Part shown: one piece after another, positions 1,485-32,197 of the stretch
Numbering within the stretch: the first letter of the stretch is position 1
Layout of the letters: every line of letters starts with the position of its first letter
IMG/VR virus record: IMGVR_UViG_3300043446_000712
Coordinates: 1 to 33,716 of that record
Length of the DNA: 33,716 nucleotides
DNA from: a virus
Strand: one strand, 5' to 3'
Notes under the pieces: model-generated
Told to the model about the DNA's origin: nothing
Databases searched by the model: none
Seen by the model: the letters and a program-made list of their open reading frames with translations, nothing else
Made by a program: the position numbers and the translations under genes

Positions 1485-1514
1485 ATTATAGCATTTAGAA
1501 CAGGTTCCCGTGAA
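1485..1514 (-). promoter_or_regulatory. Extended -10 promoter for recA
   Basis: On the minus strand TGcTATAAT lies at 1493-1485, in the 30-base gap before recA. A weak -35 (TTCACG, 1514-1509) is 18 bases upstream, inside the end of the mazG-like gene. The start would fall near 1478, giving a leader of about 14 bases with a purine-rich ribosome site (AAAGAAAGAG). It belongs to the TGnTATAAT family seen at four other gaps. Confidence 0.6.
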
Positions 1515-1842
1515 GCTTTGGGCGCTGTTTATTTTTTTCCATTTTATTATGCAATATTTCGTCAAGGCTATGCAAAACCTGTTCTTCATTTCTCATCGCA
1601 GCGTATACATCAAGAATTCTAATAATAATATCTGCTATTTCTTCTACAACTTTTTCAGAACCTTGGCTTTTTCGAATAGCCTCTAAAACTTCTGTAACTT
1701 CTGAATGTACTAAAGCTAATTTATTTCCTATTTTGTCATGGTTATATTCGCCATCCCAAAATCCTTTTTCTCTAGCAGTTTCATGGAGTATGGCAGCTAA
1801 TGCATCAAGACCATACTCAGTAATTATTTCATTACTGTTCAT
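1495..1842 (-). CDS. MazG-like nucleotide pyrophosphohydrolase
   Basis: This 115-residue protein fits the all-alpha NTP pyrophosphohydrolase (MazG/dUTPase-2) superfamily. Residues 41-54 (KLALVHSEVTEVLE) hold the ExxE pair E48/E51, and EEIAD (67-71) supplies E68 and D71 of the ExxD half. Together they make the Mg-binding site that hydrolyses NTPs to NMP and pyrophosphate. Phages use such enzymes to clean nucleotide pools or lower host (p)ppGpp; the substrate here cannot be told. ATG at 1842 overlaps the upstream gene by 11 bases and GAGGAATAAAG precedes it. The recA promoter sits against its stop codon. Confidence 0.85.
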   Translation of the reverse strand: MNSNEIITEYGLDALAAILHETAREKGFWDGEYNHDKIGNKLALVHSEVTEVLEAIRKSQGSEKVVEEIADIIIRILDVYAAMRNEEQVLHSLDEILHNKMEKNKQRPKLHGNLF

Positions 1843-2023
1843 CTTTATTCCTCAAACTAAATTTAAACGTCAACTCTTGATCGTCATATTCTACAACTAA
1901 TTCTTTATCTTCATTAGCCGCATTTACAAATCTGGTAGTTGGGACTGATAATGTCCCATGCTCTTCAAGCAATGCTACCAATATCTTATTTAGGCTCATA
2001 GACTGAATTATGTCTTCTGTCAT
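1832..2023 (-). CDS. Small conserved-type phage protein, unknown function
   Basis: This 63-residue protein has an N-terminal helix (SLNKILVALLEEHG) followed by strands (TTRFVNAA, ELVVEYDDQELTFKFSL). I do not recognise a named domain. Its ATG at 2023 overlaps the dnaE stop as ATGA and its end overlaps the mazG-like gene, so it is translationally coupled between polymerase and pyrophosphohydrolase. The alternating hydrophobic pattern of the C-terminal half supports a real folded beta-hairpin rather than a chance frame. A role with the polymerase is possible but not shown. Confidence 0.7.
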   Translation of the reverse strand: MTEDIIQSMSLNKILVALLEEHGTLSVPTTRFVNAANEDKELVVEYDDQELTFKFSLRNKDEQ

Positions 2024-5000
2024 TTGATTTCCTTAATCATCAATGTGCCGTCATCTAATTTAGATAGCACTGGTTTACATTTCATTCCGTCACGCATTTT
2101 TGCCAATGTTATTTTATACATGGCTGGAAAAGCGATGGCTCTGGTAAGCTTTTTATCCTTATCAGACATAACGATATGAGACATAGTCTTACCACTTTTT
2201 GTTTGATACGGGCTAAAGTTTACCACAATCTTTTCATCTTCTTCAAGATCATATTCTTTTCTATATAAATAGTCTACAAATATATCTGATGAATTGGGGC
2301 CAATGTCTGATACTTCTACATATCTTGCAATACGATTATCTCCGACTAGAATAAAATACATCTTACCAGATTCAATTTGAGTTTGTTCATGATGGAATAG
2401 GCCTATACTTCCAGTCTCATCTACTAATTCAACTCGTGCCCAGCCTTTGCCACGCTTAATACTTTTAACCATACCAAACATAACAAACGATCCAAGTGGA
2501 TCAAATTCATCTATTGTTAAGGCTTGTGCTTTGATTCTAGGTGGAATATTCTTTAAATCGAATGCTGGTATGCCTAGATATTCGTAGTAGTTTTCTTTTT
2601 CTTGACCGCTCCTAGGATTATCCTCAAAGGCAGCACCGCCAATAGCATTAAGAGAGCTAATAGCCCTGCTATTAATGCCACTTCCTTTCTTTGAGGCTTT
2701 TTCAATAAATTCTTTATAATTTGCATATGGTCTTCCTTCTATTATTTTATTTGCTATGCTGTCTGATATAAATTTAATTTCAGCCAGCCCAAACCTTAAT
2801 GAATCTTTCTGCAAAGAAAAGTATACATCTGATTCATTTATGTGTGGCAATTGAACTCTTAATCCAAGTCGTTTTGCTTCAATGAGATATTCGGTTCTTG
2901 TATCTTTGTCTCCTTCATTTTTGAGCGCCGCAAAAATGAATTCAAGAGGATAATAATGCTTAAGCCAAGCGGTATAATAAGAAAGCATAGAGTAAGCAAC
3001 AGCGTGAGACCTATTGAACGAATATCCAGCATGCGCTTCGAAGTCGTGCCAGAGTTTTTCTGCTTGTTTTTTAGAAATGTGCTTTGAAGCACCTTCAATA
3101 AATTTATCCTTAAACTGGTCGAATTCTTTTGCATCTTTCTTCTTTCCAATAATTTTACGAACTTTGTCTGCCTCAGACCAAGTCATTCCACCTAAATATA
3201 CGCAAGCCTGCATAACCTGTTCCTGATAAACAATTACTCCATATGTATTCTTTGTGAATGGCTGCATAATTGTATGAACATATTCAACTGCTTCTTTGCC
3301 CTGTTTTCTATTTATATATGAAGCTCCAACTGTATTCATAGCACCTGGTCTAACTAGAGCATTTGAAACAACCAAGTCTTCAAATTCTGTAGCACCCATC
3401 TTAATCAATAAATTTGTATATGGCGTTGCTTCTGCTTGAAATATTCCTTTTGTATATCCTTCGCTTAGCATCTTGTAAACTTCTGAATCATCAAATTTCA
3501 TCTTAGACAAATCTATATGTCTACCAGTTCTTTTCCTAATTGAATTTAATGTATCTGCAATTACGGACAAACATTTTAATCCAAGAGCATCAAGCTTAAT
3601 CAATCCAATATCTGCAACAGTATCCATGTCATATGCAATAACTGGGATACGTCCAGAGGCCTTATCTTCTCTATCTTCTCTTGTTTCAACTGGTCCATAG
3701 TTACGGATATCATCTTTGGCAACGATAACTCCTGCAGCATGGATTCCTGTGCTTCGTATCTTGCCACGCAATCTTTCTGCAAGCCATGTTACTTCAGGAT
3801 ATCTCATTCTAAATTCTTTTGTATTTGGAGAGGTAGCATAATCATCAAATGTATCTACAGATTTAAGAGCATGATTAACTTCAGCAAGCGGAACCATAAA
3901 TGCACGAGCAGCATCACGTACTACACCCTTATCTTTAAAATAAGTAAATGTAGAAATAGAAGCAACATATTTAAACTTTTTCTTCAAATAATCTTTAACT
4001 TCTTTACGACGACGATCTTCAAAATCTGTATCAATATCTGGAAAGTCATTACGCTCTGGATTAATGAAACGGAAGAATAGTAAATCATATTCAATTGGAT
4101 CTACGTCTGTAATACCTATTGAATAACATACTAAAGAACCCGCTGCCGAACCACGGCCAGGACCCACCATAATCTCCTGCCCCTTAGCCCAATTAATCAT
4201 ATCTGCCACAATTAAAAAGTATGAGGCAAATTTCTTATCCTTAATAACTGCCAATTCTTCCTCTAGGCGAGCCCTATAGACCTCATCTGAGGCCTTTCCT
4301 AGCCTTTCTAAGCCCTTTTCAGCCATGTCCCGTAGCTTTTCATCAGCATTGGTCTTTGGGACTGGCAGAAGGTCAAGATTTCGATATAGGTCATATTCGC
4401 CTACCTTATCTGCAATTTCTAGGGTATTATCAAATATATCAGTTCTATTTATACTAACCTTCTTAAAATCCGCCTCAATTTCTTCACGAGTCTGCATGAA
4501 TAGGTTCATACCTTTAAATGACATACGGCGATCAGGATACAAATAATCAAATCTATCTGCCATGTCCTTCATTTGTCTGGACATATCGAAGTCTGCATCC
4601 TTATTCATTTTAGGATTTGTTGAAATAATAAGAAGGGCTTCTTCTAATAGTCTATCTTCTTCTTTGGCATAATGAATATCTCCTGTTGCTACCGCTTTAA
4701 TTTTTAATTCATCTGCTAGGCTTAGTAGTGCTTCATTTATTTCTTTTGGGTTGTGGGACTGAACCTCAATATAAAAGTCTTCACCAAAAGTCTGTTTAAA
4801 ATCTTTGAGTATAAGTTTTGCTTCTGAGAATTCCTGGCGTTCAATAGCTTTGCTAATAAGTCCATTAAGACATCCAGAAAGCACGATGATACCTTCCGCA
4901 TATTCTTTTAATACCTCTCTATCAATACGTGGCTTAGAATAAAATCCCTCTGTCCATGCAATCTCTTGCAATTTATGAATATTTTCTAAACCTTTTTTAT

Positions 5001-5289: not shown

Positions 5290-5302
5290 AACCGCCTTTG
5301 AA

Positions 5303-5324
5303 ATGGGGGCCCGAAGGCCCCCAT
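5303..5324 (-). promoter_or_regulatory. Very stable UUCG-capped mRNA hairpin between ssb and dnaE
   Basis: The minus strand reads ATGGGGGCC-TTCG-GGCCCCCAT: a nine-pair stem closed by the C(UUCG)G tetraloop. It begins 5 bases after the ssb stop and ends 13 bases before the dnaE ATG. Only TTT follows the stem, so it is a poor intrinsic terminator. It more likely shields the 3' end of the ssb message or partly attenuates read-through into dnaE. Confidence 0.75.
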
Positions 5325-5328
5325 CATA

Positions 5329-5997
5329 TTACCAATCTAAGCTGCTACTAGTTGCAGACTCAGTTTCGTCGGAGCCGCCTTCTCCGTTAAAGAAGGACTC
5401 TTGATCTGCGTATGGCAAGTCACGCACAGCAGTCTCTTCTAATTTATACAATTCAAGAGCGGTAGCATCAAATGGTGTTTCATCTTTTGCTAGTGGAATG
5501 ATTGTATAACTTGTTTCAGTCTTTAGACCAGTTCTCTTGATACGCCACATAAGATTTGTGATTGAACCCATTTCTCCTGCGTATTCAATTAGAGTAGGTG
5601 TAACAGTTTTTCCGCTACTACCCTGTGAGAGGATTGCTACATATGGCTCCTCTTTGCCATCATCAACAAGAACATTAATGTAGAGTCGTGAACGACCTTT
5701 CCATCCCGCCTTGTAATCCTTGCGATGTTGTTCGCAACCATAGCACTTGCCCTGGTCATCAGTTGTGCAAAGCGCCTTGCGACGATAATCTTTAGGATTT
5801 GTGTGCTCTACTGCAATAAAACCCAGTCCAAGCTTTTCGTTATAATTTGGTGAATCTGGATCCAACTCCTGAAGAAAACGAATCTTTACGCTTTCTCCAT
5901 CTTCAAGCTTTACCCATTTTGCTTTTGTGCCGTCGCCAGATGATTGTGGCTTATCTAGCGCCTTGTTGAGGTCTTTTAGACCCTTTACGATACCCAT
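5329..5997 (-). CDS. gp32-like single-stranded DNA-binding protein
   Basis: This 222-residue protein has a basic N-terminal stretch, then an OB-type core (VKIRFLQEL, SRLYINVLVDD, YVAILSQ). A likely zinc site is formed by H65, C77, C85 and C88. T4 gp32 uses H64, C77, C87 and C90, so both order and positions match closely. The tail (from about residue 200) is acidic and Ser-rich and ends in LDW, like the protein-docking tails of SSB proteins. It should coat ssDNA at the fork and recruit replication or recombination partners. It has its own extended -10 promoter and an AAGGAG site 7 bases before ATG, and is followed by a UUCG hairpin, all fitting high expression. Base composition is richer in G+C than neighbouring genes. 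Confidence 0.8.
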   Translation of the reverse strand: MGIVKGLKDLNKALDKPQSSGDGTKAKWVKLEDGESVKIRFLQELDPDSPNYNEKLGLGFIAVEHTNPKDYRRKALCTTDDQGKCYGCEQHRKDYKAGWKGRSRLYINVLVDDGKEEPYVAILSQGSSGKTVTPTLIEYAGEMGSITNLMWRIKRTGLKTETSYTIIPLAKDETPFDATALELYKLEETAVRDLPYADQESFFNGEGGSDETESATSSSLDW

Positions 5998-6043
5998 ATA
6001 GTTTCTCCTTTATAGTTGACGGTATAGATCCGTCTGTTATTTC

Positions 6044-6080
6044 ATTATATCATGGGTTCCAAGATCGATATTCGATATCG
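6044..6080 (-). promoter_or_regulatory. Extended -10 promoter for the ssDNA-binding protein gene, with a dyad at its -35 region
   Basis: TGaTATAAT lies on the minus strand at 6052-6044. The hexamer at the -35 distance (AATATC, 6072-6067) is poor, but it lies within an inverted repeat, CGATAT-TCG-ATATCG, at 6066-6080 inside the 3' end of the primase gene. The leader also carries a small GACGG/CCGTC hairpin (6018-6034) before AAGGAG. The dyad could be an operator; that is inference. Confidence 0.6.
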
Positions 6081-7048
6081 GAAACTGCATTCTTAATGCA
6101 GGCAATAATTTCTTTTTCTGTCATATCGCCAGCATCTTTTGCATCATGTGGGTATATCTTACCATATTCATAGGAGGCCCACAAGATGTCTTTATTTTTT
6201 AATCTATTGGCTATGCTAAGCCCTAACTCTCTGCCAGCCAAATCTGAATCTGTCATTATTGTTATACGATTAAAATATCTATTCAACAAAGCTAAATTTT
6301 CTTTTGATAAATGTCCACCTAAAGTTGCAACAACATTAGGAAAACCAGCCTGATGTATTCTTATAGCATCAAAACTTGATTCTACAATTATTACATGTTC
6401 ACCAATTCTTTTAGCTCTATGAATATTAAACATGGTTTTATTCTTTGGTAGATTTGTACTATTCTTAAAACGTTTTTCTTTTATTGCTCTACCTACAAGA
6501 CCAACAGGCATTCCATCTGGGCTATGAACTGGCACAATAACCATATCCATTTTAGAGGAATATCCTAATTTAAAATGCTTCATAGACTCTTCGTTTATTC
6601 CACGAGATTTAAAATATTCTTTAGCCGCTTCTGATGAACCTAGTTCATTGTATAAGTTATCTAGAGTTTCTTGAGAAAATTCCTCAAAGTCTGGCCTCTC
6701 TTCAAATAACGAATTAAGTGTTTCTTCAAATACATCATCTGCCTCCGATTTCTTTGACATAATAAATCTTAATACTTCAAACTCATTCTTACCCAATACT
6801 CGCTTAACAAGATCTTTTAACCCGCCAGATTCACCACATGATGGATTAAAACAAAGCCAAGCACCAGTTCTTTCGCTAATATAAAAACATGGAGTATTTA
6901 CGTTATTATGAAAAGGACAATACAAGACAAGATTATCATTCGATTCGCCAATTATATTAAGGCCTAAACCTTTTACTATTGCTTTAACGTGGCTTGGCGT
7001 ATAGAACGAGGTATCAGCTTGCCCTGCGTAATCCCCTCTGACTCCCAT
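6050..7048 (-). CDS. DnaG-type DNA primase
   Basis: From ATG at 7048 the protein has 332 residues. A CHC2-type zinc module uses C44, H47, C66 and C71 (CPFH...CFNPSC). A linker follows, then a TOPRIM domain: IVESSFDAIRI carries E223 and MTDSDLAGRE carries D267 and D269, the metal-binding acids for primer synthesis. It should lay RNA primers for the phage replisome with the DnaB-like helicase encoded two genes upstream. The frame is open to an ATG at 7099, but 7048 is preferred because GGAAAGAAG precedes it and the overlap with the upstream gene is smaller (73 versus 124 bases). It is shorter than bacterial DnaG and lacks an obvious C-terminal helicase-binding domain. Confidence 0.92.
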   Translation of the reverse strand: MGVRGDYAGQADTSFYTPSHVKAIVKGLGLNIIGESNDNLVLYCPFHNNVNTPCFYISERTGAWLCFNPSCGESGGLKDLVKRVLGKNEFEVLRFIMSKKSEADDVFEETLNSLFEERPDFEEFSQETLDNLYNELGSSEAAKEYFKSRGINEESMKHFKLGYSSKMDMVIVPVHSPDGMPVGLVGRAIKEKRFKNSTNLPKNKTMFNIHRAKRIGEHVIIVESSFDAIRIHQAGFPNVVATLGGHLSKENLALLNRYFNRITIMTDSDLAGRELGLSIANRLKNKDILWASYEYGKIYPHDAKDAGDMTEKEIIACIKNAVSDIEYRSWNP

Positions 7049-7275
7049 GCTTTCTTCTTTCCAACATAAACTCCATGGATTGTCATTATGAACTTCCATG
7101 TCTCGCCTGTGAATTCTACCGAAAATGCTGTGTCTATGTCAAGCAACCTAGCATATCCTTTGCTTCTCATATCATGAGTAAGCATATTTTCATATTGATT
7201 TTTAATTCTGATCATATCAGAATCATCTGCAAATTCTACACGAATTTGAAATCTTTTAATTTTCCGATGCGTCAT
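6976..7275 (-). CDS. Hypothetical protein between helicase and primase
   Basis: This 99-residue basic protein starts with ATG at 7275, overlapping the helicase end by 20 bases; its own end overlaps the primase start region by 73 bases. Strand-rich segments (RFQIRVEFADD, TAFSVEFTG, WKFIMTIHGVYV) suggest a small beta-sheet protein. I recognise no named family. Position between helicase and primase in one overlapping run suggests a replication accessory role, but nothing in the sequence shows it. Confidence 0.65.
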   Translation of the reverse strand: MTHRKIKRFQIRVEFADDSDMIRIKNQYENMLTHDMRSKGYARLLDIDTAFSVEFTGETWKFIMTIHGVYVGKKKAWESEGITQGKLIPRSIRQATLKQ

Positions 7276-9022: not shown

Positions 9023-9129
9023 TACTTGTGCTCCTTTAGGTGTCTATTTAATGTTTCATGGGCAAATATTCCCCAACGAACTTCTATTTCTTTAGAACAT
9101 AAACTACAAATAACTACTCTGCCTGTCAT
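9022..9129 (-). CDS. 35-residue C2H2 zinc-finger protein
   Basis: This short gene fills the gap between the HTH gene and the 69-residue gene. ATG at 9129 overlaps the upstream stop as ATGA, and its TAA overlaps the next ATG as TAATG. The product is almost only one zinc finger: C8-x2-C11, then W19, F22, L27, H30 and H34. The finger-type spacing F-x4-L-x2-H-x3-H follows the C-x2-C pair. The fit to both flanking gene junctions is strong evidence for a real gene despite the size. It may bind DNA or a protein partner; function is unknown. Confidence 0.75.
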   Translation of the reverse strand: MTGRVVICSLCSKEIEVRWGIFAHETLNRHLKEHK

Positions 9130-9614: not shown

Positions 9615-9748
9615 CGTCCTAATGGGCTTCTATCCTTATTAATCATCCATCTCTTGCCACACATGATGCAGAAGAGTTCTACATGTAGTTTTTGTGAGAA
9701 TACTCTATCTACAAAAACTCTTCCTTTACACTTTTGACATTTCATCAT
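9560..9748 (-). CDS. Small zinc-ribbon protein
   Basis: This 62-residue protein has CQKC (residues 4-7) and CIMC (27-30), the two knuckles of a treble-clef or zinc-ribbon fold, followed by a charged helix. It starts at 9748, coupled to the metallophosphoesterase stop by ATGA, and overlaps the HTH gene. It may bind nucleic acid; no specific function can be assigned. Confidence 0.7.
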   Translation of the reverse strand: MMKCQKCKGRVFVDRVFSQKLHVELFCIMCGKRWMINKDRSPLGRWLEQKEFEHLKDYSIFS

Positions 9749-10551
9749 AGCTTAAACACCTTGCCATCTACGACGCATGAATAGTCTGGGGACACTTCAA
9801 TTAACTGAACATGAGGCCACTTACCATTTTCAATATGTGCTACGGCAAAACCTTTTTGCCAATCGTGATGCTGTGAGTATTTCATACCACTAGATCTTGG
9901 ATCACACATATGACCAATTTCATAGCCACGAATTGTTTCTCCTTTGCCCTTATTTCTAAGTTCATATGTTTGGAAATGTGCTGCCATTCTGTGCGAATGT
10001 CCACGAATTATTGATACTTGTAAATTGTTCATATCTGCACGAACTGCACCAGTATCTGCTACTGATATTCCATGGTGAACATGGATATCACCGTAACGCT
10101 TTTTTGGCAAAGCATCATAATAAATATAATCATATCCTAAAGAATCTAAATTCCAAAGTGCTTCTGGCGTAACTATATTTAGAAAGTCTGGAAGTTTTGC
10201 ATCTATATAATTAAATACACGAATGTCATGATTACCTAAAGCGGTAAATAATTCTGCATCTGGTCCAGCAACTTCTCTATTCATTGCATAAAATTCTCTT
10301 GCGCCTTTAGCTTCATGTTGCATGAGAGGAACAATTGCTGCTCCGTTTTGATCTTTATGCATTCTTAAAAACTCTGCAGATTTACCTTCTGTAAATCTAC
10401 TATAACATGCTTGATCGTCGGTATCTCCAAGGATGTCTACAACATCTGGTTTCCACCATTTCATTACTTCAAACCAAAGCTTAATCATTTTATCGTCTTG
10501 ATATGGGAACTGCTGATCGGACGATAACATCCATTTGAGATCGTTTGTCAT
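9745..10551 (-). CDS. Calcineurin-like metallophosphoesterase
   Basis: This 268-residue protein carries the five blocks of the superfamily: D12-x-Q14 in SSDQQFP, GDTDD (42-46), GNHD (106-109), VHHG (158-161) and GHSH (184-187). These residues bind two metals and hydrolyse phosphomono- or diesters. The first block has Gln where the usual D-x-H has His, as occurs in some subfamilies. The substrate is unknown; a nuclease or nucleotide phosphatase would fit. It is the first gene after the tail/replication boundary and has AAGGA about 6 bases before ATG. A TTGACA-type promoter 50-80 bases upstream probably starts the replication operon here. Confidence 0.88.
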   Translation of the reverse strand: MTNDLKWMLSSDQQFPYQDDKMIKLWFEVMKWWKPDVVDILGDTDDQACYSRFTEGKSAEFLRMHKDQNGAAIVPLMQHEAKGAREFYAMNREVAGPDAELFTALGNHDIRVFNYIDAKLPDFLNIVTPEALWNLDSLGYDYIYYDALPKKRYGDIHVHHGISVADTGAVRADMNNLQVSIIRGHSHRMAAHFQTYELRNKGKGETIRGYEIGHMCDPRSSGMKYSQHHDWQKGFAVAHIENGKWPHVQLIEVSPDYSCVVDGKVFKL

Positions 10552-10566
10552 TTTAATCCTTATACT

Positions 10567-10593
10567 AAAAAAGTCACGGAATCGTGACTTTTT
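10567..10593 (-). terminator. Hairpin with U-tract at the tail/replication boundary
   Basis: AAAAGTCACG and CGTGACTTTT pair around a four-base loop (11 pairs including the A/T flank), and a T-run follows in both directions. It can terminate late transcripts after the H-lectin gene. Because the promoter at 10633-10606 would start RNA at about 10599, the same hairpin would also form the very 5' end of the replication message. Confidence 0.75.
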
Positions 10594-10615
10594 ATGCTAC
10601 AGCAAATTGTAGCAT
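10594..10615. promoter_or_regulatory. Inverted repeat over the -10 box, possible operator
   Basis: ATGCTAC and GTAGCAT face each other across eight bases, covering the TACAAT -10 box and the expected start. A bound repressor or activator would directly control the promoter. It could also fold as a hairpin in late RNA just before the terminator. The dyad is seen; the operator role is inferred. Confidence 0.5.
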
Positions 10616-10633
10616 TTACTAATTGGCTGTCAA
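10606..10633 (-). promoter_or_regulatory. Consensus promoter for the replication operon
   Basis: On the minus strand TTGACA (10633-10628), a 16-base spacer, then TACAAT (10611-10606), with TGc just before the -10. This is the best -35/-10 pair I saw in the window. The start would be near 10599, driving the metallophosphoesterase and the following replication genes. Confidence 0.75.
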
Positions 10634-10635
10634 GC

Positions 10636-11571: not shown

Positions 11572-11592
11572 GTTTCTCCTAATGTAGACCTA

Positions 11593-14545: not shown

Positions 14546-14546
14546 G

Positions 14547-15506
14547 CTAGAATCCTAAATCTAATCTATATTCTACTTCTACTGGTCTTCCGCCGACCTT
14601 ATCTAGTGTTGATGGTAGTGATGATCTGCTAATAAGTCCAAAGTTTGGATCAAATGTATCTTCATCATTTATTCTTAATCCGTCAAGACCAACTGTTGTG
14701 TTTCCACTTCCGCTTGCAGTAACTATTATTCCAATTTCATTTATATTAGTTTTGTCTGGTGCTGTTGCTGAGTTTGTAGGGCTAGAATATAAGTCTCCCA
14801 AAGTAAATGATGTTGGAATCTTGTATCCAGATCCAGCTCCATATTGAGTTGATGTTAAAGTTTTTTCAAAATATTTTGTAGAATCGCTATAAAATCTTAT
14901 TTTTAAGGAAGAAAGATTGGAATCATTTTTATAAAATGCAATACTTATATTATCGTTTACGCTATATCCAGAAAGATCCAACGGAACTATGGAAGACTTA
15001 TATTCATTTGAATTTCCAGAAAGAGCGGTAAAGTTTAAAAGATTTCCACTAATTCTATAATTTGTTGTATCTAATGATGGGTTTATTGAGTTTGAATCAA
15101 ACCAGGACAAAGCATCGTCAAAATCAGAAATATATTTGCTATCATAATTATTTATAGAAAGTCTAGTTGATGGATAAATTCCAACCTCATTTATTTTTGC
15201 AATAACATCTTGAGGAATAGTTGTTTTAAATACAACATAGTATGTAGTAACTGAATTTGAAGTTTGTATATCGGTACTTCCTAAAGTAACTGGAAGTCTA
15301 TAAAATTCAAATCCTAATCTTGTATTATCAACACTTACTGGATATTCAGTTCCATTTGCTACACCAAAAGCCATATCTAATTTATATACAGGAATATTTC
15401 CAGCAATTAAATTAGTAAAATATCTTGCTCCAAATTTTGTTATAACATTAGAAGACCTATATATTTCTTTTCCATCTACATAATAAATATATGTTCCTTT
15501 AATCAT
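14547..15506 (-). CDS. Minor tail / tail-tip protein
   Basis: From ATG at 15506 the protein has 319 residues. A TTG start six codons earlier is possible, but GGAG lies seven bases before the ATG, which decides the start. The N-terminus (TYIYYVDGKEIYRSSNVITKFGARYFTNLIAG) resembles the start of small baseplate/fibre-attachment proteins. The centre (about 130-290) has a jelly-roll-like pattern (YKSSIVPLDLSGYSVNDNISIAFYKN, LKIRFYSDS) suggesting a carbohydrate-binding insert. It lies between the 121-residue protein and the fibre, two genes after the hub-like proteins, so a tail-tip or fibre-anchoring role is likely. Confidence 0.65.
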   Translation of the reverse strand: MIKGTYIYYVDGKEIYRSSNVITKFGARYFTNLIAGNIPVYKLDMAFGVANGTEYPVSVDNTRLGFEFYRLPVTLGSTDIQTSNSVTTYYVVFKTTIPQDVIAKINEVGIYPSTRLSINNYDSKYISDFDDALSWFDSNSINPSLDTTNYRISGNLLNFTALSGNSNEYKSSIVPLDLSGYSVNDNISIAFYKNDSNLSSLKIRFYSDSTKYFEKTLTSTQYGAGSGYKIPTSFTLGDLYSSPTNSATAPDKTNINEIGIIVTASGSGNTTVGLDGLRINDEDTFDPNFGLISRSSLPSTLDKVGGRPVEVEYRLDLGF

Positions 15507-15864
15507 TTTCGGGCTCCGTTCCAACTATACGGGCATCTACTCCGACCACAGATGACGGATCTTTTGAAGAATTTCTTACTTTAAAAACTATTTCATAGTA
15601 TATTTCATTACTTCCTGCTCGTCTTTTTTTAGTAGGTCCAGAATAAACTGATATATCTGAAAGATTTGGAGCATCTTTATCAAACAGTGGCTCTGGGTCA
15701 TCTTTACCAGCTCCAATAACTAGTGATGCAGCATATGGACTTACAACCTTAGTACCAGCTTGAGTTACTAATGGATCAAGTGGTTTACGAAAACGGGAAG
15801 GACCAACTATCTTGGTCTCTGGGATTCTATTAGGGACCTTGTCTGATATTTCTTTAGATGCCAT
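15499..15864 (-). CDS. Small tail-region protein, apparently leaderless
   Basis: This 121-residue protein has a basic, Pro-rich N-terminus and a beta-rich C-terminal half (NEIYYEIVFKVRNSSKDPSSVVGVDARIVG). I recognise no family. No ribosome site precedes its ATG: the upstream bases are TATAAT followed by A6 and then ATG, so the expected start of transcription falls on the A of the start codon. It may also be read by coupling from the upstream gene, whose stop is 26 bases away. It overlaps the next tail gene by 8 bases. A structural role is inferred from context. Confidence 0.65.
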   Translation of the reverse strand: MASKEISDKVPNRIPETKIVGPSRFRKPLDPLVTQAGTKVVSPYAASLVIGAGKDDPEPLFDKDAPNLSDISVYSGPTKKRRAGSNEIYYEIVFKVRNSSKDPSSVVGVDARIVGTEPEND

Positions 15865-15870
15865 TTTTTT

Positions 15871-15879
15871 ATTATACCA
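15871..15879 (-). promoter_or_regulatory. Extended -10 promoter placed for a leaderless message
   Basis: TGgTATAAT sits on the minus strand with six bases between the -10 and the ATG at 15864, so transcription would begin at the start codon. No good -35 is visible. A dyad lies immediately upstream at 15877-15897. Confidence 0.5.
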
Positions 15880-15897
15880 TTTAGTACTGCTAAATGG
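15877..15897. repeat. Inverted repeat over a stop codon and against a -10 box
   Basis: CCATTTAG and CTAAATGG are perfect eight-base arms around five bases. The repeat covers the stop codon of the upstream gene and touches the TGgTATAAT box. As RNA it is a moderate hairpin without a U-run; as DNA it could be a protein-binding site. Confidence 0.5.
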
Positions 15898-17581
15898 TCC
15901 TCCCTACTATTGATGTGGTTAGTCCATTATTATATTCATGATTGACGCTTGTAACAATAATCTTTTGAGTATCATCAAATTGATGATATGGATAGTTTAC
16001 AGTTATTATATCTCCAACCGATATTAACGGATTTCCAAAAATAGTCATATTAATTATTTTTGATTTATTAACAACTTTGCTTTTAATAAAATTAGCTAGT
16101 TGTTTTGCATCATTCTCAGTTTGAATCCAGTTTGATTTAAATGATACAACTTCTTGAACTGCAAATTCTGAATCTGGCTCAGACCTATATGTTATTTCTC
16201 CAGCCAGTCCGACTGTAGTTCCTTGTAGTTCTAATAAATTTGTTTCCTGGTCTGACAAAATTACTGGCTGTGAAGTATTGTTTAAAACAAATATTTCTGA
16301 ACTAAAATTGCTATATCGTTGATCTAATATAGTTACATTTTGATTATATCCAAGATTCCAATTATTTGGAAATGCTGGGGCGCTACTGAATGTTCCGCCT
16401 GCTTTTACTATTTCTCTAGCAGTTGTTCCAAACTCATCATATGAATTTTCATCTTCGGCTGTATCATCGTCTGCATTATCTCCAACATATAGAATATCTC
16501 CATACTTTGTTATTAAATAATCATTTGAATATTTACCTCTATATGTATTATAAATATCTTGATTATCATAGGTATCTGCATCTATTGCTGTTCCATACGC
16601 ATAATCAAAAGATACTGTTCCAGATGCTGCAACCAAAGCTACTTTTTGAGTGACTGCTATAATTTCATTTGTAGCCTTCCCTGTTTCTCCAAAATTTTTA
16701 TCTATAGCAGTTATTTTAAACCCATCTACAAATGCAGAAATTTCTATTGTTCCTCTATTTGTATCCGAACTATTAGTTCCACCTACTTTTACCTTTATAT
16801 CAATTGTATGATTTTCTCCACCGTAAACTGAGTCTAGCGTTGTTGTGGGTGTAACCTGACTTGTTTTTAATACTATTATTTTTTTACTTGTTACCTTAAT
16901 TATTCTTACTGGTTGTGCACCTCTTGCTGCGGCTGTTCCTGTAGTAGAAACTAGAACATAGTACCCGCTAGTCATATCATCACTTAAAAAGAAACCAAAT
17001 CCAGCTTCCTGTGGATCTTGATTATCTAATGGAGGAAATATGAAAGATGTTCCAAAAGAATAATGATATGGACCACCAGTATATGCTCTTGGAGTGAAGG
17101 TTGGTAAAATGCTCATAGTTGTAGATGATGGCACCTGTATTGCTCCAAATGTTCTATGAGCTATATTATATTTAGTATCATTTTCTTTTCCACCCACTAG
17201 TTGAAGGAATGAACTTCCTCCAACTGCACTTGTTTTGCTGGCTTCTTTTTGCATACCTTTTAATTGAAAATATACTTGAACAGTATTGCCTATTCCTAAA
17301 GCACTAGAACATCTTGTTTTAATTAACCATAAACTATTTTCTGGGAGATCATTAAAATAAAGAGCATTGACATTTTCATTATATTCAAAATCTGGGTAGT
17401 TTCCAGAAAAATCTCCAACACCTTTCATCCGTGTGAGAATATATGTATATGTAGTTGGAGTTTCAATCATTGCCTCATCTTTTATTTTTACATATATTTG
17501 TGTGTTACTAGTTTGAGTTATAGACGGAGGCTCATACTGTTTATGAAGTACTTGTCCAGATAAATTGTCTGCGTATCTCAT
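15890..17581 (-). CDS. Baseplate-hub-like tail protein with a lectin-like insert
   Basis: From ATG at 17581 (AAGGA five bases upstream, just after the previous stop) the protein has 563 residues; the frame is open to a TTG nine codons earlier. The centre, about residues 140-350, reads like a LamG/concanavalin-type sandwich (FGFFLSDDMTSGYYVLVS, IDIKVKVGG, IEISAFVDG). The last 100 residues resemble hub proteins of the gpD/gp27 class: WIQTENDAKQLANFIKSK, then GNPLISVGDIITVNYP and a final VNHEYNNGLTTSIVGRTI. It likely forms part of the tail-tip hub with the gene before it and may contact cell-surface sugars. Confidence 0.7.
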   Translation of the reverse strand: MRYADNLSGQVLHKQYEPPSITQTSNTQIYVKIKDEAMIETPTTYTYILTRMKGVGDFSGNYPDFEYNENVNALYFNDLPENSLWLIKTRCSSALGIGNTVQVYFQLKGMQKEASKTSAVGGSSFLQLVGGKENDTKYNIAHRTFGAIQVPSSTTMSILPTFTPRAYTGGPYHYSFGTSFIFPPLDNQDPQEAGFGFFLSDDMTSGYYVLVSTTGTAAARGAQPVRIIKVTSKKIIVLKTSQVTPTTTLDSVYGGENHTIDIKVKVGGTNSSDTNRGTIEISAFVDGFKITAIDKNFGETGKATNEIIAVTQKVALVAASGTVSFDYAYGTAIDADTYDNQDIYNTYRGKYSNDYLITKYGDILYVGDNADDDTAEDENSYDEFGTTAREIVKAGGTFSSAPAFPNNWNLGYNQNVTILDQRYSNFSSEIFVLNNTSQPVILSDQETNLLELQGTTVGLAGEITYRSEPDSEFAVQEVVSFKSNWIQTENDAKQLANFIKSKVVNKSKIINMTIFGNPLISVGDIITVNYPYHQFDDTQKIIVTSVNHEYNNGLTTSIVGRTI

Positions 17582-17582
17582 T

Positions 17583-19889
17583 TTATCCTTGATCCCACTG
17601 TTCCTCAACTACCGTCCAATTTGTAAGTTTTTCTGAAGCGGCATAATGTGTTTCTCTTTTTGTATTAAATACTCCACGATTTTTTATTCTATATCGTCCA
17701 GTTGGATAAAATGTAGTTGGATCCTGATATGAACTTGCTCTTATAGAGTCTAATGTTGATTTTGAATCTATCCACTCAACATATGTTTTTCCATCTGATA
17801 ATTTTCTATATGTATATTCTAATGCATCGTATTCAAATATTTCTGAATTAATTAAAAAATATCCTGAAAAATTAAATGTTGATAAAATTGGAAAATCTCC
17901 TGGAATACTTTTTAATTTAAAGTCTATATTTTGAGGTTCTGTTGTAGATAATATATTCTTTTCAAGAGCACCAGCATATATATATGAAATTGGTGACGAC
18001 CATATAGATTCTGCAGTATCTTGATTGTATACTGAAGATATCGGAGGAGCCCATTTAACTACAACTTGATTTGTGGATGCTATTTCTTTTTTAGAAAAAT
18101 CTACTATATTAGGAAGAATACTAACAGATTCTTGAGTTGGTCCTGATCCTAAAGTTACCGTTCCTCCAGAAGATTGATAAAACTTCCAATCAACAGAAGT
18201 TTTTTTATATATGTAATCTCTGCTATAAAATTGAAGAATATTGTCTTCATCAAAAAATGCATTTATTTGTGCATCTCTACATAACTCTTGCAAATGATCC
18301 CATACTGTTTTTGACTCATCAGACCACCATGCTATTAGTTTTGGAATACTTGTATCACTATTTGATGATAAATTAATTTTATAATTTGTAAATCCTACAG
18401 AATCAAGTAGAGAAATTATTGCAGATGTAATTGGGCAATCCTCTAAGTATAAATTTGTAGGCTGTACCTGCATTAAATATTTTGAACCATCTAAAGCATT
18501 TACTTGTGTATCTCCATATGTAGACACTTCAAATGTATCTATATAAAATGTTCCTTGACCAATTCTATCGTATTTTAAAGATCCATCAGTTACCGTTCCA
18601 TTTGAACTGTATAGCAAAAAATATGGATTAATTGCAATATCTTTGTACAAATATATAATATCATTTGGGGTTGGAGTAGTACTCCAAGAATCTTGCCTAT
18701 CATATGGAACTACTCTAATATTTTCTTGATTATATTTTACAATACTAAGCTGAGCATTATTTGCAGTTATTGTTCCTACTGGCAAGAGATCTTCGCTAGA
18801 TGAAGATGCTTCTTTTGATATATTAAATGATACTAGATCTGAAGATATATCTTTTACCCATCTTGCAGAAATTTCTGTTACAGCTATAACTCTTTCGCTT
18901 GGTGCGCTTGAAGTGACTAGTCTTATAGATTTAATTTCTTTTGGTGCTGAATAGGATACTGGTTGTGATGAACTAAATGGTGGTGTAGTTGACCAAGATG
19001 TTCCATTCCAATACAATATAAGTGTTCCATCAGAATAACTTGTTGATGATACAGATATTGGAGATGGGCTAGTTCCAGACGCATAAGTAATTGTTATTGT
19101 TGATGATGTTGGTATGTAATGATATTTTTCAAATTTTATTAATATCTTATTTGCTAAAGCTGGCTTTGTACTAATTGCGGTTCCTGAAGAATTTACTATT
19201 TGCGCTTTTCTTAATCCCCCTCCGTTTTCGCTTGCTATAGCCATGTCATCATTAATCATAAATTCTGTAGTAGAAATAATTGAAGCTATTTGTTTTGTTT
19301 CATTATTTAAATTAAAATCAGAATTAGTAAATCCAGATATTTTTACTTTTAAATTTGATGTGAGTCCATGTGGACTGCTAGTTTTATATATTACTTGCTC
19401 ACTTGTACTTTCTGATCCAGGTCCTGTGCTATATGCTGACTCTATTGGAATTTCTGATTGAGAATATGTTAAAGTTATATCTGCTGGTTGAGCCTCTGGA
19501 GAAACCCAATACTTATACTTATTTACAAGTCCAGAGTAATATACTCTTGGCTTTGTAAATGTTGCATATTGTAAATCTTTGTAGTTAAAAAAGGATAACT
19601 TAGTTTGAGAGTCATAAGTTGACAATATGTCTCCGTTATTTTGAAACATTATATAATATTTAATACCATTATCTATTGGTCTAAATGGTTTAACTATAGA
19701 GTCTACTGGGAATAGTTTCTTATACACATTTATTCCGCCAGCCGTAGGATAAGTCAAGCTTGATCCATATGCAACAGTAATATTATCTATCATAGAGTTC
19801 ATATTATATTCTAATGTGCAGCCAACTCCTATATTAATAGAAGTGTTATTATATAGAATTTTTTGAACATTTTGACTTGCTGATATCAT
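17583..19889 (-). CDS. Large minor tail protein (tail-tip/hub component)
   Basis: From ATG at 19889 the protein has 768 residues. That ATG overlaps the previous stop as TAATG, so it is preferred over a TTG 11 codons upstream. It is beta-rich. A discoidin-like region (about 255-360, ending EIKSIRLVTS...VTEISARWVKD) is followed by a hub-type segment, LVSFNISKEASSSSEDLLPVGTITANNAQLSI, and by TVWDHLQELCRDAQINAFFDEDNILQFYSRDY, a pattern common to siphophage minor tail proteins. It is encoded after the tape measure and a distal-tail-like protein, the usual place for tip proteins. Confidence 0.75.
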   Translation of the reverse strand: MISASQNVQKILYNNTSINIGVGCTLEYNMNSMIDNITVAYGSSLTYPTAGGINVYKKLFPVDSIVKPFRPIDNGIKYYIMFQNNGDILSTYDSQTKLSFFNYKDLQYATFTKPRVYYSGLVNKYKYWVSPEAQPADITLTYSQSEIPIESAYSTGPGSESTSEQVIYKTSSPHGLTSNLKVKISGFTNSDFNLNNETKQIASIISTTEFMINDDMAIASENGGGLRKAQIVNSSGTAISTKPALANKILIKFEKYHYIPTSSTITITYASGTSPSPISVSSTSYSDGTLILYWNGTSWSTTPPFSSSQPVSYSAPKEIKSIRLVTSSAPSERVIAVTEISARWVKDISSDLVSFNISKEASSSSEDLLPVGTITANNAQLSIVKYNQENIRVVPYDRQDSWSTTPTPNDIIYLYKDIAINPYFLLYSSNGTVTDGSLKYDRIGQGTFYIDTFEVSTYGDTQVNALDGSKYLMQVQPTNLYLEDCPITSAIISLLDSVGFTNYKINLSSNSDTSIPKLIAWWSDESKTVWDHLQELCRDAQINAFFDEDNILQFYSRDYIYKKTSVDWKFYQSSGGTVTLGSGPTQESVSILPNIVDFSKKEIASTNQVVVKWAPPISSVYNQDTAESIWSSPISYIYAGALEKNILSTTEPQNIDFKLKSIPGDFPILSTFNFSGYFLINSEIFEYDALEYTYRKLSDGKTYVEWIDSKSTLDSIRASSYQDPTTFYPTGRYRIKNRGVFNTKRETHYAASEKLTNWTVVEEQWDQG

Positions 19890-27435: not shown

Positions 27436-27447
27436 CTATATTACTTT

Positions 27448-28109
27448 TTACTCCTTAGAGTATCCAAGTCCCATTCCAACTCCGAATCCAGCTTCTTCAG
27501 CTACTTGACCTTGTAAAGAAACAACATCATCAGTTGATGCGTTTATTCCCATGGCCCTCAATCGAATGTCTTCAAAGGTTGGACCTTTTTCTTCTTTCTC
27601 ATCATCTCTAATGTCGACTCCTTGAAGAGATGCTAAGAATATTCTATTTTCTTTTTCTTCCTTTTGCATTGATTCTATCGTTTGCAAAAGCTCTGGCATT
27701 GATATGCTTTCCTCTAATTCTTGGTAATTTTTCCAAGATCCTAAAAGAAATACTTTACCTAATAGAGCGGCTAGGTCTAGTTCTGACCAGCCAGAACCGC
27801 TGCCGCTACTAGGTTTGGGTCGTCAAGTTTGATTCCCCCACATACTTCAAGAATTCTATTGATAGTAGGTACATCTAGAGCTTCCTCTAGTTTATCTCTA
27901 TCTTTAGTAAGTTCTGGAAGTTGTGTTTCTAAAGCAATCGCACATGCATCGATCAAAACGCTTAATGATTCATCTTCAGTCGTTGCTTCAGAAGCCTTAT
28001 TCATTGCTGCCATAAATTTACGCAGCTGTTTAATTGATAATGGTTTCAACTGTACTGTTGAACCGTTTTGTAGTTTAATATCTTCTACGTCATATACTGT
28101 AGTAGCCAA
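27448..28109 (-). CDS. Tail assembly chaperone GT fusion, made by -1 frameshift
   Basis: The product is predicted to read 99 residues in the G frame (28109-27813), slip back one base at CCCAAAC, and continue 121 residues to the stop at 27448, giving 220 residues. After the slip the sequence is PSSGSGSG, a flexible linker, then WSELDLAALLGKVF and a charged helical T domain (MPELLQTIESMQKEEKENRIF...). The T frame has no start of its own that would include the protein-like WSELD segment, although an internal ATG at 27699 exists. In many siphophages GT binds the tape measure while G coats it during tail assembly. The gene order (tube, chaperones, tape measure) is exactly as expected. Confidence 0.85.
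27766..27807 (-). promoter_or_regulatory. Two-tier RNA structure downstream of the slippery site
   Basis: Outer arms AGCGGC (27807-27802) and GCCGCT (27771-27766) enclose an inner hairpin GTTCTG/CAGAAC (27785-27780 and 27797-27792). The outer stem begins five bases after CCCAAAC, the spacing typical for frameshift-stimulating structures. The inner hairpin ends next to the zero-frame stop codon. Confidence 0.5.
27777..28109 (-). CDS. Tail assembly chaperone G
   Basis: This 110-residue protein is the zero-frame chaperone product, ending at TAG 27777. It is helical and acidic (SIKQLRKFMAAMNKASEATTEDESLSVLIDACAIAL), as is usual for the family. The start is TTG at 28109, decided by a near-perfect AAGGAGG five to six bases upstream. 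It follows a promoter and terminator after the tail tube gene. Helical content, position before the tape measure, and the frameshift signal near its 3' end agree on the role of coating the tape measure during tail tube polymerisation. Confidence 0.85.
   Translation of the reverse strand: MATTVYDVEDIKLQNGSTVQLKPLSIKQLRKFMAAMNKASEATTEDESLSVLIDACAIALETQLPELTKDRDKLEEALDVPTINRILEVCGGIKLDDPNLVAAAVLAGQN
27813..27819 (-). other. -1 programmed frameshift slippery site CCCAAAC
   Basis: In the G frame the bases read C CCA AAC, an exact X-XXY-YYZ heptamer, 11 codons before the zero-frame stop. The -1 frame is closed by TGA just upstream (in CTT GAC) and is open from there through the T domain to 27448, so this is the only well-formed heptamer in the usable overlap. 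Confidence 0.85.
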
Positions 28110-28126
28110 TTTATCCTCCTTGGATA

Positions 28127-28143
28127 GTTATAATCATTATAAC
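28127..28143. repeat. Perfect 17-base palindrome containing the -10 box
   Basis: GTTATAAT-C-ATTATAAC has eight-base arms around one base. It holds TATAAT on both strands, so it could be a protein-binding site, a two-way -10 element, or both. Confidence 0.6.
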
Positions 28144-28164
28144 AAATACATTTTATTAATACAA
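28136..28164 (-). promoter_or_regulatory. Promoter for chaperone and tape-measure genes
   Basis: TTGTAT (28164-28159), a 17-base spacer, and TATAAT (28141-28136) preceded by TGt on the minus strand. The start would be near 28129, giving a short leader with AAGGAGG before the TTG start of G. It lies directly after the tail-tube terminator. Confidence 0.65.
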
Positions 28165-28167
28165 GCA

Positions 28168-28196
28168 CAAAACCCCCATAAAATATGGGGGTTTTG
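28168..28196 (-). terminator. Intrinsic terminator after the major tail protein
   Basis: A perfect 13-pair stem (CAAAACCCCCATA with its complement) closes a three-base loop. T4 stretches lie at the stem ends, so it may work on either strand. It lies 17 bases after the tube gene stop. Confidence 0.8.
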
Positions 28197-28212
28197 CAAT
28201 AACTTAAATTAA

Positions 28213-28935: not shown

Positions 28936-29041
28936 CTTTTTCTACCTCCTAATTTTAAAAATTAAATTGTTAGGCTGGCTAGGCCCTTTCCTCTTTCCTC
29001 TATGTCCAATTTTAGAGTATGAGGGGTCAAAAGGCAAACTA

Positions 29042-29557: not shown

Positions 29558-30333
29558 AGTGATGCTCCGAATGCTGCAGTCAGAGCAGCGTCTGCTTGAA
29601 TTGATATTGTATTTGGATTAAATGAATATTTAATAGTTTTAATATCTGATGGTATACTTAATGCTCTTGACATAGACCTATTAAATAGTTGTTGAAATCC
29701 AGATTTTTTTATTGATAGATTAACTAAATTAGATTTAAAAAATCTAGAATATGTCATCATAAATGAATTTTTAACACCCGTTCCTCCTGGTCTCCTGACC
29801 GTTACAGAGGCTCCTTCTGGCATAAAGACCTTGTAACCATTAGTCTCAAATACAAGGCGCTTAGAATGGCGTGGAGCAATTTTAAGAGGCATTCCAGCTT
29901 CCATCACTGCTGCTTTATTTACAAATACATGTCTACGATTACCTTCTGATTTAGCAAATGTTTTAGAAGGCAAAAATTCATAAGAAATAGAAAATCCTAG
30001 GCCTTCTGAATTTAATTTATTAAATTTAAATAGTCTTGATCCAGGATTTCCTGTTTGATCCCACTCGTAGACATGATGTAAAGATCTGGGTTTAACTCTA
30101 GCTTGTGAGTCTATAAATTCTCCAAGATCTTTTTCTATTTGATTAAATATAACTTCTTTAAATTTATTTTTGAATGCAATATTTGAAGTTAGTTTACTTA
30201 TAACCTCTACATTATAGTATACGTAGGCAGATATTTGAGCTACAAGGCTTTCTTTTATTACATCGCCCTTTGACCTTGTCATTAATTTTTTTAGACCACT
30301 AGAAGCCTGAATTAATGGTAGATTATATTCCAA
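29554..30333 (-). CDS. Neck / tail-completion protein (HK97 gp10-like place)
   Basis: This 259-residue basic protein starts with TTG at 30333 (GGAG about ten bases upstream). It has an N-terminal helical half and a beta-rich half with SLHHVYEWDQTGNPGSRLFKF and a basic RPGGTGVKNSF segment. Its place between head closure and tail terminator is the usual place of the gp10-like completion protein. It is longer than the typical member (about 110-150 residues). The assignment is from context. Confidence 0.6.
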   Translation of the reverse strand: MEYNLPLIQASSGLKKLMTRSKGDVIKESLVAQISAYVYYNVEVISKLTSNIAFKNKFKEVIFNQIEKDLGEFIDSQARVKPRSLHHVYEWDQTGNPGSRLFKFNKLNSEGLGFSISYEFLPSKTFAKSEGNRRHVFVNKAAVMEAGMPLKIAPRHSKRLVFETNGYKVFMPEGASVTVRRPGGTGVKNSFMMTYSRFFKSNLVNLSIKKSGFQQLFNRSMSRALSIPSDIKTIKYSFNPNTISIQADAALTAAFGASL

Positions 30334-30751
30334 TGTTCTGGTTCTCCGATCTTTTTATTACTGAGTTGTAGGATATGACATTTCCAAAGCCGTCCGTTAC
30401 TGGGGTACTTCCAATTACTTCAAATACAGTAGGTGTATCTGATGGGTAATTTAATTCTACCCAAATTGGATTATTTTTTGAATCTCTAATATTTGTAATT
30501 TTTTCTCTATATGTTAAACGCTGTATAGTTCTAATTTGAAGAATTTCTTCATTTGTATATTTTGTTCCATATGACTGAATACTATTTGTTCGTGTAGAAG
30601 ATGAATTACTAATTACTCCTTTAGCAGAGCAATCTACAGTTTTATAATAAATCCATTCTTTTACAATGGCTCCAGTATCTGGATCTTGTAATTCTGTTTG
30701 TCTATAGACATCCATCTTCATAGACAAAACGGAGTCTATAAGATCTATCAT
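30323..30751 (-). CDS. Head closure-like protein
   Basis: This 142-residue protein reads as a small beta-barrel: MKMDVYRQTELQDPDTGAIVKEWIYYKTVDCSAKGV, then LTYREKITNIRDSKN...WVELNYPSDTPTVFEVIGSTPVTD. The start pattern (VYR...DPDTGAIVKEW) is that of SPP1 gp16/HK97-class closure proteins that plug the connector. It overlaps the adaptor gene as ATGA. Confidence 0.65.
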   Translation of the reverse strand: MIDLIDSVLSMKMDVYRQTELQDPDTGAIVKEWIYYKTVDCSAKGVISNSSSTRTNSIQSYGTKYTNEEILQIRTIQRLTYREKITNIRDSKNNPIWVELNYPSDTPTVFEVIGSTPVTDGFGNVISYNSVIKRSENQNIGI

Positions 30752-31737
30752 ATAACAACCATAGTGGTAAGAACATATGGATATAGCAATTGATCTGCAT
30801 ATGCATTACCAGTTCCCTTATATGCGTCTGATGAGTATTCGAAATCCCAATCGAATGTAGAAAGGCTTTTAACATATTTATTTGTCCAGACTTTGTCTTT
30901 AGCAAAGTAATCTCCAATTAGTTGAATGCATGCTTGCTCAACATTATCTGGAACTTCTGACCATCCGAATTTTCCAGCAACTTTATATCTAGTGTCTTTT
31001 CTAAATGCTCCATTTCCACCATAATCATTTATAGTTGGGGGAACCATTCCATTAGCAGTATAAACTGTATTATCCAAAGAATCTGTTCTGTCTACTCTTA
31101 ATCCGAATCCTGTTTCTGAAATAATTGGATCGAATATCCAATTATTTTCATCATTAATATTATCTACTAAAAGTAAATCATTTCCATATAATTCATGAAG
31201 TGTATCTAATTTAAATGGAAGTGGAAGAATATCAGACCCAGAACCATAAGCTATTTGAACATCATCATATAGATAAAAGTTTTGTCCAGTATGATTTTCA
31301 ATTACTTTTCTTGCATATTTTTCTGCCATGATTAATTCATGGTATGATTTATAGTTTGGATCCGACGGATCTGTGGCTATACCTAGATCTTCTACTACTT
31401 CTGATAATGATGCGTATGGGGTTACTACGTCTACAAATGTATCGTGGCTAGCCCCAGAAGAACTAATTGTATATTTCCATTTTAATTTTAAATTTTTATT
31501 TCTATCTGTTAATGCATATGGTATGTTAATTTCATAAGATCCAGGATCTACTTCTGATTTTGTAGCAGGAAGATTAGATGATACTGGTGTAGATGGACTT
31601 ATAGATGGTACTACCGCTGGATCTTGAGTAATATCATATATATCTACAAGTACTGTAGAGTCAGCATCTACTATTTGTCCGCCCCAAAATATTTTTGTTT
31701 TTGCTGGTGCGTAACTATTCTTATATACCTCTGCCAT
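30748..31737 (-). CDS. Head-tail adaptor protein with an extra N-terminal domain
   Basis: This 329-residue protein has two parts. The last two thirds include YASLSEVVEDLGI, helix HELIMAEKYARKVIENHTGQNFYLY and the motif YKVAGKFGWSEVPDNVEQACIQLIGDYFAKDK, which matches the gp6-type adaptors that dock on the portal. The first about 105 residues form a separate beta-rich domain (TKIFWGGQIVDADSTVLVDIYDI...GSYEINIPYAL...LKLKWKYTIS), resembling an Ig-like module. Usual adaptors are 100-200 residues, so the N-terminal part is an addition. The ribosome site is weak; it starts nine bases after the previous stop. Confidence 0.7.
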   Translation of the reverse strand: MAEVYKNSYAPAKTKIFWGGQIVDADSTVLVDIYDITQDPAVVPSISPSTPVSSNLPATKSEVDPGSYEINIPYALTDRNKNLKLKWKYTISSSGASHDTFVDVVTPYASLSEVVEDLGIATDPSDPNYKSYHELIMAEKYARKVIENHTGQNFYLYDDVQIAYGSGSDILPLPFKLDTLHELYGNDLLLVDNINDENNWIFDPIISETGFGLRVDRTDSLDNTVYTANGMVPPTINDYGGNGAFRKDTRYKVAGKFGWSEVPDNVEQACIQLIGDYFAKDKVWTNKYVKSLSTFDWDFEYSSDAYKGTGNAYADQLLYPYVLTTMVVI

Positions 31738-31746
31738 TTAATTGGC

Positions 31747-32142
31747 TTAGTTGTAGAACTCCTGTACTTCTGTTGGAGTTGCTAATACAAAGCCTTCCTC
31801 CTTATCAAAAATTGCTTGGGCTGTATCTTTGTCCATAGCAACAAATGGATGTTCTTTTGTAAAACGATTTCCCATAATTTCATAACTATAATTTGGGCGA
31901 ATCATTTTTACAAGAACCATATCTTCCTTATTAACCGCCTTTGGTGCCGCCTTTGGTAAAGTTTCATTCATTTCTTTTTCTTCTTCCTCTATTCCTTTGG
32001 CTTTCTTATAGATAGCCCAGGTTACGCCTTCTTCTGACAAAGCAGCAATAATATCTTTTTTACCGCCAAGTCCTTGAATATCTACTGCAAAATCTTCCGC
32101 AATTTGCTTCAACTCTGCAACTTTTAATGTATCAAATGACAT
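31747..32142 (-). CDS. Head-region protein with SAP/Rho-N-like domain
   Basis: This 131-residue protein begins with TLKVAELKQIAEDFAVDIQGLGGKKDIIAALSE (residues 5-37), the helix-turn-helix pattern of the Rho-N/SAP/HeH group that binds nucleic acid. A charged linker (EEEEKEMNETLPKAAPKAV) leads to a compact C-terminal part (VLVKMIRPNYSYEIMGNRFTKEHPFVAMD). Such proteins are often encoded beside the capsid gene. It may be a small head protein that contacts DNA. AAGGAG is well placed, and a promoter and terminator lie just upstream. Confidence 0.65.
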   Translation of the reverse strand: MSFDTLKVAELKQIAEDFAVDIQGLGGKKDIIAALSEEGVTWAIYKKAKGIEEEEKEMNETLPKAAPKAVNKEDMVLVKMIRPNYSYEIMGNRFTKEHPFVAMDKDTAQAIFDKEEGFVLATPTEVQEFYN

Positions 32143-32168
32143 TAATTTCTCCTTTTATAGGTCAATTA

Positions 32169-32197
32169 ATTATAGCATTGTTGGATTAAAAGGAAAA
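32169..32197 (-). promoter_or_regulatory. Extended -10 promoter for the connector genes
   Basis: TGcTATAAT at 32177-32169 on the minus strand, just after the capsid-gene terminator. The -35 position (TTTTCC) is not consensus and lies in the terminator arm. The start would be near 32162, giving a short leader with AAGGAG. Confidence 0.6.

Follow-up and report, generated by a model that had tools for sequence, protein, structure and literature searches.

Results

The record IMGVR_UViG_3300043446_000712 is a 33.7 kb piece of a virus contig, and the whole of this stretch (hereafter the window) was analysed. Every gene lies on the minus strand. In order, the genes encode capsid and tail proteins, a metallophosphoesterase, a helicase, a primase, an SSB, a DnaE-like polymerase, a MazG-like protein, a UvsX-like recombinase and a Holliday junction resolvase. 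The best matches of the capsid protein and the polymerase are in Streptomyces phages of the Stanwilliamsviridae (56–59% identity), and the gene order agrees with that of phage Comrade. Phage records gave no near DNA match to the window; its close relatives are hundreds of IMG/VR metagenome contigs from uncultivated viruses. All 13 long relatives tested (104–120 kb) encode WhiB, a marker of actinophages (PMC10202952), which points to a host that is very probably an actinobacterium and whose habitat is likely freshwater. A search of bacterial genomes with the capsid gene gave no match, and Rfam and tRNA scans of the window found nothing.

The motif TGnTATAAT occurs exactly seven times on the two strands of the window. 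Five copies lie on the minus strand and touch intergenic gaps, at the positions that an earlier note on this DNA had reported. The same note had seen none inside genes, which is wrong: one copy (TGATATAAT, 1076..1084, minus strand) falls in the recombinase gene and another (TGCTATAAT, 16655..16663, plus strand) is an exact match antisense in a tail gene. The former is kept in 4 of 191 relatives and is a coding accident outside the set; the latter is probably accidental too, and likewise outside the set.

The raw total is only mildly above chance, with 3.75 matches expected from whole-window shuffles and seven or more reached in 4 of 100. Gaps account for 2.9% of positions, and five of the seven matches touch one (binomial p 4e-7); on the coding strand alone five of six do so (p 1e-7). 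Dinucleotide-shuffled gap sequences gave a mean of 0.08 matches and never reached five in 2,000 shuffles. TATAAT without the TG shows no gap enrichment in the window (p 0.49); the enrichment needs the TG, as would be expected of an extended -10 element. The gaps at the five boxes are 30, 52, 25, 103 and 99 bases long (1485, 6044, 15871, 28136 and 32169, respectively). Two further apparent gaps are probably filled. The stretch 27700-27776 probably belongs to the tail assembly chaperone as its second half; a second frame for this chaperone runs at 27448-27776 (minus strand), its first part lacking a start of its own. Because phage Sham annotates this chaperone as joined from two pieces, programmed frameshifting is likely. 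The apparent gap at 9023-9125 contains an unlisted 35-residue ORF (9129-9022, minus strand) with a zinc-finger-like C-x2-C ... H-x3-H pattern.

All of the features described next lie on the minus strand. The box at 32169..32177 (TGCTATAAT) is 26 nt 5' of the ATG of gene 31747-32142, the first gene past the major capsid gene, and its leader has the Shine-Dalgarno sequence AGGAG. A predicted intrinsic terminator with a 12-bp stem (32193..32222) would end the capsid transcript, and its 3' arm overlaps the would-be -35 position (17-nt spacer) of the box. The box at 28136..28144 (TGTTATAAT) is 26 nt 5' of the tail assembly chaperone gene (27777-28109), which starts with TTG. The box lies just past a predicted intrinsic terminator with a 15-bp stem (28166..28198), which would end the major tail protein transcript, and it has a weak TTGTAT at -35 with a 17-nt spacer. 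The third box (15871..15879, TGGTATAAT) ends 6 nt 5' of the ATG of tail gene 15499-15864, with no Shine-Dalgarno sequence. The fourth (6044..6052, TGATATAAT) lies upstream of the SSB gene (5329-5997), and the primase gene (6050-7099) uses its TGA as a stop codon. A hairpin, GACGG-ATCTATA-CCGTC (6018..6034), would form where the SSB mRNA is predicted to begin; among 21 leaders 99% of cells are paired, and both-side, compensatory changes occur in four of its five pairs. The fifth box (1485..1493, TGCTATAAT) is 20 nt 5' of the ATG of the UvsX-like recombinase gene (460-1464). Just before the polymerase gene we also observed a very strong UUCG-type hairpin (5324-5303) with a 9-bp stem and no long T run; strong yet different hairpins occupy this spot in 14 of 111 relatives.

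The -35 regions are mostly poor, as had been noted before. The best match to TTGACA is 4/6 at 1485 (18-nt spacer), 2/6 at 6044, and 3/6 at each of 15871, 28136 and 32169. The -35 zone falls within the upstream gene at three boxes (1485, where this is the MazG-like gene, 6044 and 15871), within the terminator stem at 32169 and just after the terminator at 28136.

Four of the five boxes could be followed through the relatives, whose counts are non-independent, merging having been limited to identical upstream sequences. TGnTATAAT is present at the 32169 junction in 52/52 distinct relatives, at the 28136 junction in 25/30, at the 6044 junction in 80/114 and at the 1485 junction in 61/130, with the looser TGnTAnnnT in 123/130 at the last; the exact motif is thus missing from some relatives at one junction or another. 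The fifth box, 15871, stands ahead of a fast-evolving gene, and when the tail protein 15890-17608, which also evolves fast, was used for a scan, it returned none. Six control gene-start junctions in the relatives contained no TGnTATAAT at all, and junction alignments show the box columns conserved amid variable flanks. The boxes are on the strand of the following gene, in fixed distance classes. Since a box is kept at the same junctions in hundreds of relatives, we regard the boxes as real.

The terminators are kept as well. One lies upstream of the 32169-type box in 45/52 relatives (the stem ending a median of 15 nt before the TG) and of the 28136-type box in 26/26 box-bearing relatives. Seven relatives (L008, L011, L021, L027, L052, L057 and L071) have no terminator before the post-capsid promoter and keep the promoter together with an upstream CTTTCCAAATAAT; in these, an inserted gene may end in the sequence before CTTTCCAAATAAT. 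The cultured phages share the post-capsid arrangement of terminator plus box, in the forms TGCTATAAT (Comrade, Sham), TGCTACAAT (Peebs) and TGATACAAT (NootNoot) and, in Rhodococcus phages, TGATAGAAT (Trina) and TGGTAAAAT (Weasels2).

The layout extends genome-wide. In six relatives of 105–120 kb, 101 of 131 TGnTATAAT copies touch gaps (each genome p<3e-7), so that the equal frequency in gaps and genes that would have counted against the promoter reading is not seen. TATAAT without TG is weakly gap-enriched too in these six genomes, and other promoters must therefore exist. We found no common -35 element in the 101 aligned gap sites, and TTG at a 17-nt spacer occurs at only 12 of 93 TGnTATAAT sites. 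The extended -10 is the sole common element, in agreement with the suggestion that it is the main contact. A T4-type activator motif near -30 upstream of TATAAT was also sought, and the TGnTATAAT class has no common upstream motif.

The distance from box to start codon separates a subset of the boxes. After TGnTATAAT or TGnTAnAAT, an ATG at 6, 7 or 8 nt is far commoner than at other distances; control motifs give no comparably sharp peak. In leaderless actinobacterial genes, about a fifth of the total, the first T of the -10 box lies ~12 bp ahead of the start codon (PMC3160421). The 15871 box belongs to a family of 40 leaderless sites with the ATG 6–8 nt after the box (37 with n = G) and, because it sits 6 nt before its ATG, it probably gives a leaderless mRNA. 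The syntenic tail junction reads TGGTATGAT plus 6 nt plus ATG in Rhodococcus phage Trina and TTGACT-17-TATAAT plus 7 nt plus ATG in Streptomyces phages, a comparison that suggests a fixed start position with a changed promoter contact. The boxes thus appear to form at least two subclasses, leadered and leaderless. Base n is G at 81 of 104 leaderless sites and at 34 of 349 leadered ones. Given one vote per gene family the figures become 10/22 versus 8/39 (p 0.08); three large families drive the association, and we rejected base n as a general leaderless code. At the SSB junction n is A in 71/74 boxes because the TGA is the primase stop codon.

The metallophosphoesterase gene (9745-10551) is preceded by a promoter of another kind, which reads TTGACA-N13-TGCTACAAT (10606..10633, minus strand). 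The earlier description of a perfect TTGACA with TGc before TACAAT is accurate, the spacer being 16 nt. Comparison did not bear out the listing of this promoter as a sixth of the same set: TTGACA is invariant, the -10 is TACAAT and not TATAAT, and the leader contains a terminator of its own. Across 117 relatives the TTGACA and A-TGn-TACAATT columns are conserved around a variable spacer, and TTGACA-N13-TGnTACAATT occurs once per relative genome. The terminator (10567..10593, minus strand) is an intrinsic one that lies, attenuator-like, between the predicted start and the ATG. It is found in 92/117 relatives versus 0.2 expected, with 97.5% of its stem paired and both-side, compensatory changes in seven of eight pairs. 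In the Streptomyces relatives a TTGACA-like element persists, as does a leader hairpin, the latter with a weaker T run. Taken together, 10606 is most likely an attenuated promoter for replication genes: a distinct, -35-dependent promoter that would be gated by the terminator in its leader. An inverted repeat, TGCTACA...TGTAGCA (10595..10614, minus strand), spans its -10 and predicted start and recurs in 65/117 relatives versus 2.4 expected. A simple operator would not account for its covarying arms and variable spacing, and nor would an RNA hairpin in the promoter's own transcript. A second extended -10 on the opposite strand fits some copies only, and we dropped that idea.

A third class lies outside the window. 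The relatives carry 6–12 copies per genome of GTCRG-N7-TGnTAnnnT, usually followed by ACGAAAGG and an ATG, and nearly all are on the strand opposite the main module (L321-L356; for example G009 57274-69040, minus strand). TTG is at -35 in 13 of 42 of these opposite-strand promoters. The phage group would accordingly have, on these patterns, at least three promoter classes.

Discussion

From the positions and enrichment of the boxes, their conservation and the leader structures, we infer where transcription would start, with which sigma factor, and how it would be regulated. It is highly likely that the five boxes are extended -10 promoters, mostly -35-independent, for an actinobacterial host RNA polymerase with its primary sigma factor. 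With TGn plus TATAAT as the main contact and the -35 absent or weak, the promoter core would shrink to ~9 bp, which is why it could share bases with a stop codon (6044), lie directly against a terminator (32169, 28136) or sit between back-to-back genes (15871, 1485). Each box would start a module: the post-capsid genes, the tail assembly chaperone, the tail base, SSB-polymerase and the recombinase. Four boxes would give mRNAs with a short Shine-Dalgarno leader, and the 15871 box an mRNA that begins directly with the A of the start codon. Activity could also depend on an activator from the host or on a phage factor that has escaped recognition.

The promoter type is already known, being standard for host-like RNA polymerase; its layout is unusually well conserved. 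Extended -10 promoters account for 15–18% of the promoters mapped in E. coli and M. tuberculosis and are read with the primary sigma (PMC5511352). The boxes resemble such promoters (sigma70/SigA/HrdB) in having TGn before TATAAT, a weak or missing -35, and the right spacing and orientation. They differ in keeping a near-consensus TATAAT almost throughout, and in being squeezed into gaps of 25–100 nt or fused to stop codons and terminators. The leaderless subset has the -10 to start codon spacing of actinobacterial leaderless genes, but here the genes are phage structural and other genes, and TGG before TATAAT is favoured in three large families. The metallophosphoesterase leader follows transcription attenuators in its order of promoter, terminator, Shine-Dalgarno sequence and ATG, conserved through compensatory changes, although no leader peptide or ligand was seen. 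The Stanwilliamsviridae (Streptomyces cluster BE) and Rhodococcus phages Trina and Weasels2 share syntenic genes and the post-capsid terminator plus extended -10. By contrast, their G+C is higher (46% in the Comrade stretch), their -10 boxes are more degenerate, and GTCRG-class promoters are few or absent (1–2 pattern matches per genome).

The earlier note had proposed that a host-type RNA polymerase reads all modules, tuned by the -10. The first part is likely: no Sigma70_r2 protein was found at E<=1 in 21 genomes (the 13 relatives of 104–120 kb and 8 cultured phages), in a search whose control matched 11 of 14, and a phage sigma factor as the reader of the boxes was rejected on this ground. 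The second part gives way to the classes described above, at least three in number. In the PF00940 search for a phage single-subunit RNA polymerase, the control itself gave no match. We also observed, in all 13 relatives (G001-G013), an ORF of 47–66 residues weakly like Sigma70_r4 (for example G009:36920-37015), a match below the family cut-off for what may be any helix-turn-helix protein. Comrade and Trina each have a small annotated DNA-binding protein near the RuvC-like resolvase.

Alternatively, a phage protein might alter the RNA polymerase, either as a sigma-like factor or by covering sigma region 4 in the manner of T4 AsiA, and the -35-free promoters would then be a post-early class. 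We consider this improbable. Extended -10 promoters in general function with unmodified primary sigma; Sigma70_r2 is absent from the 13 plus 8 genomes; and the Sigma70_r4 match of the small ORF is below cut-off. The idea would nevertheless account for a TGnTATAAT class without -35 beside a metallophosphoesterase promoter with TTGACA and opposite-strand promoters with an occasional TTG at -35, and the 13 relatives do encode both WhiB and the Sigma70_r4-like ORF. Moreover, cultured phages of Nanopelagicales encode a sigma-70 factor (PMC10202952). In a related and similarly doubtful scheme, the group would split its transcription by -35 dependence. TGnTATAAT would stay active when, for example, WhiB covers sigma region 4, while the opposite strand would use GTCRG before TGn, sometimes with TTG at -35, and the single TTGACA promoter would be gated by its terminator. 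Such a takeover of sigma, AsiA-like but carried out by a different protein family, would be compatible with our findings; we found no literature linking WhiB, sigma region 4 and AsiA.

A role outside transcription, in leader RNA structure, replication or packaging, is a good deal less probable still. Several boxes do adjoin conserved hairpins, but the hairpins vary among junctions and the TGnTATAAT box is constant. The strict 6–8 nt to the ATG in the leaderless class is the spacing of a -10 box, and at the 15871 junction Streptomyces phages swap the TGn for a -35 element at 17 nt. That AT-rich gaps yield TGnTATAAT by chance is scarcely credible: the window total only mildly exceeds that of shuffles, but shuffled gaps average 0.08 matches against the five seen, and the boxes are conserved at homologous junctions.

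Extended -10 promoters for the host polymerase remain our preferred reading, and the promoter-like behaviour of the boxes is borne out by both gap enrichment and conserved junctions. On this basis, comparison alone provides a near-complete promoter map for uncultivated actinophages that are an abundant freshwater group, and the equivalent junctions in cultured Streptomyces and Rhodococcus phages make the map testable. Direct predictions follow from each of three features: the layout without a -35, the subset of leaderless starts and the terminator conserved in the metallophosphoesterase leader. The wider set of promoter classes would offer a testable route to gene timing in phages that carry WhiB.
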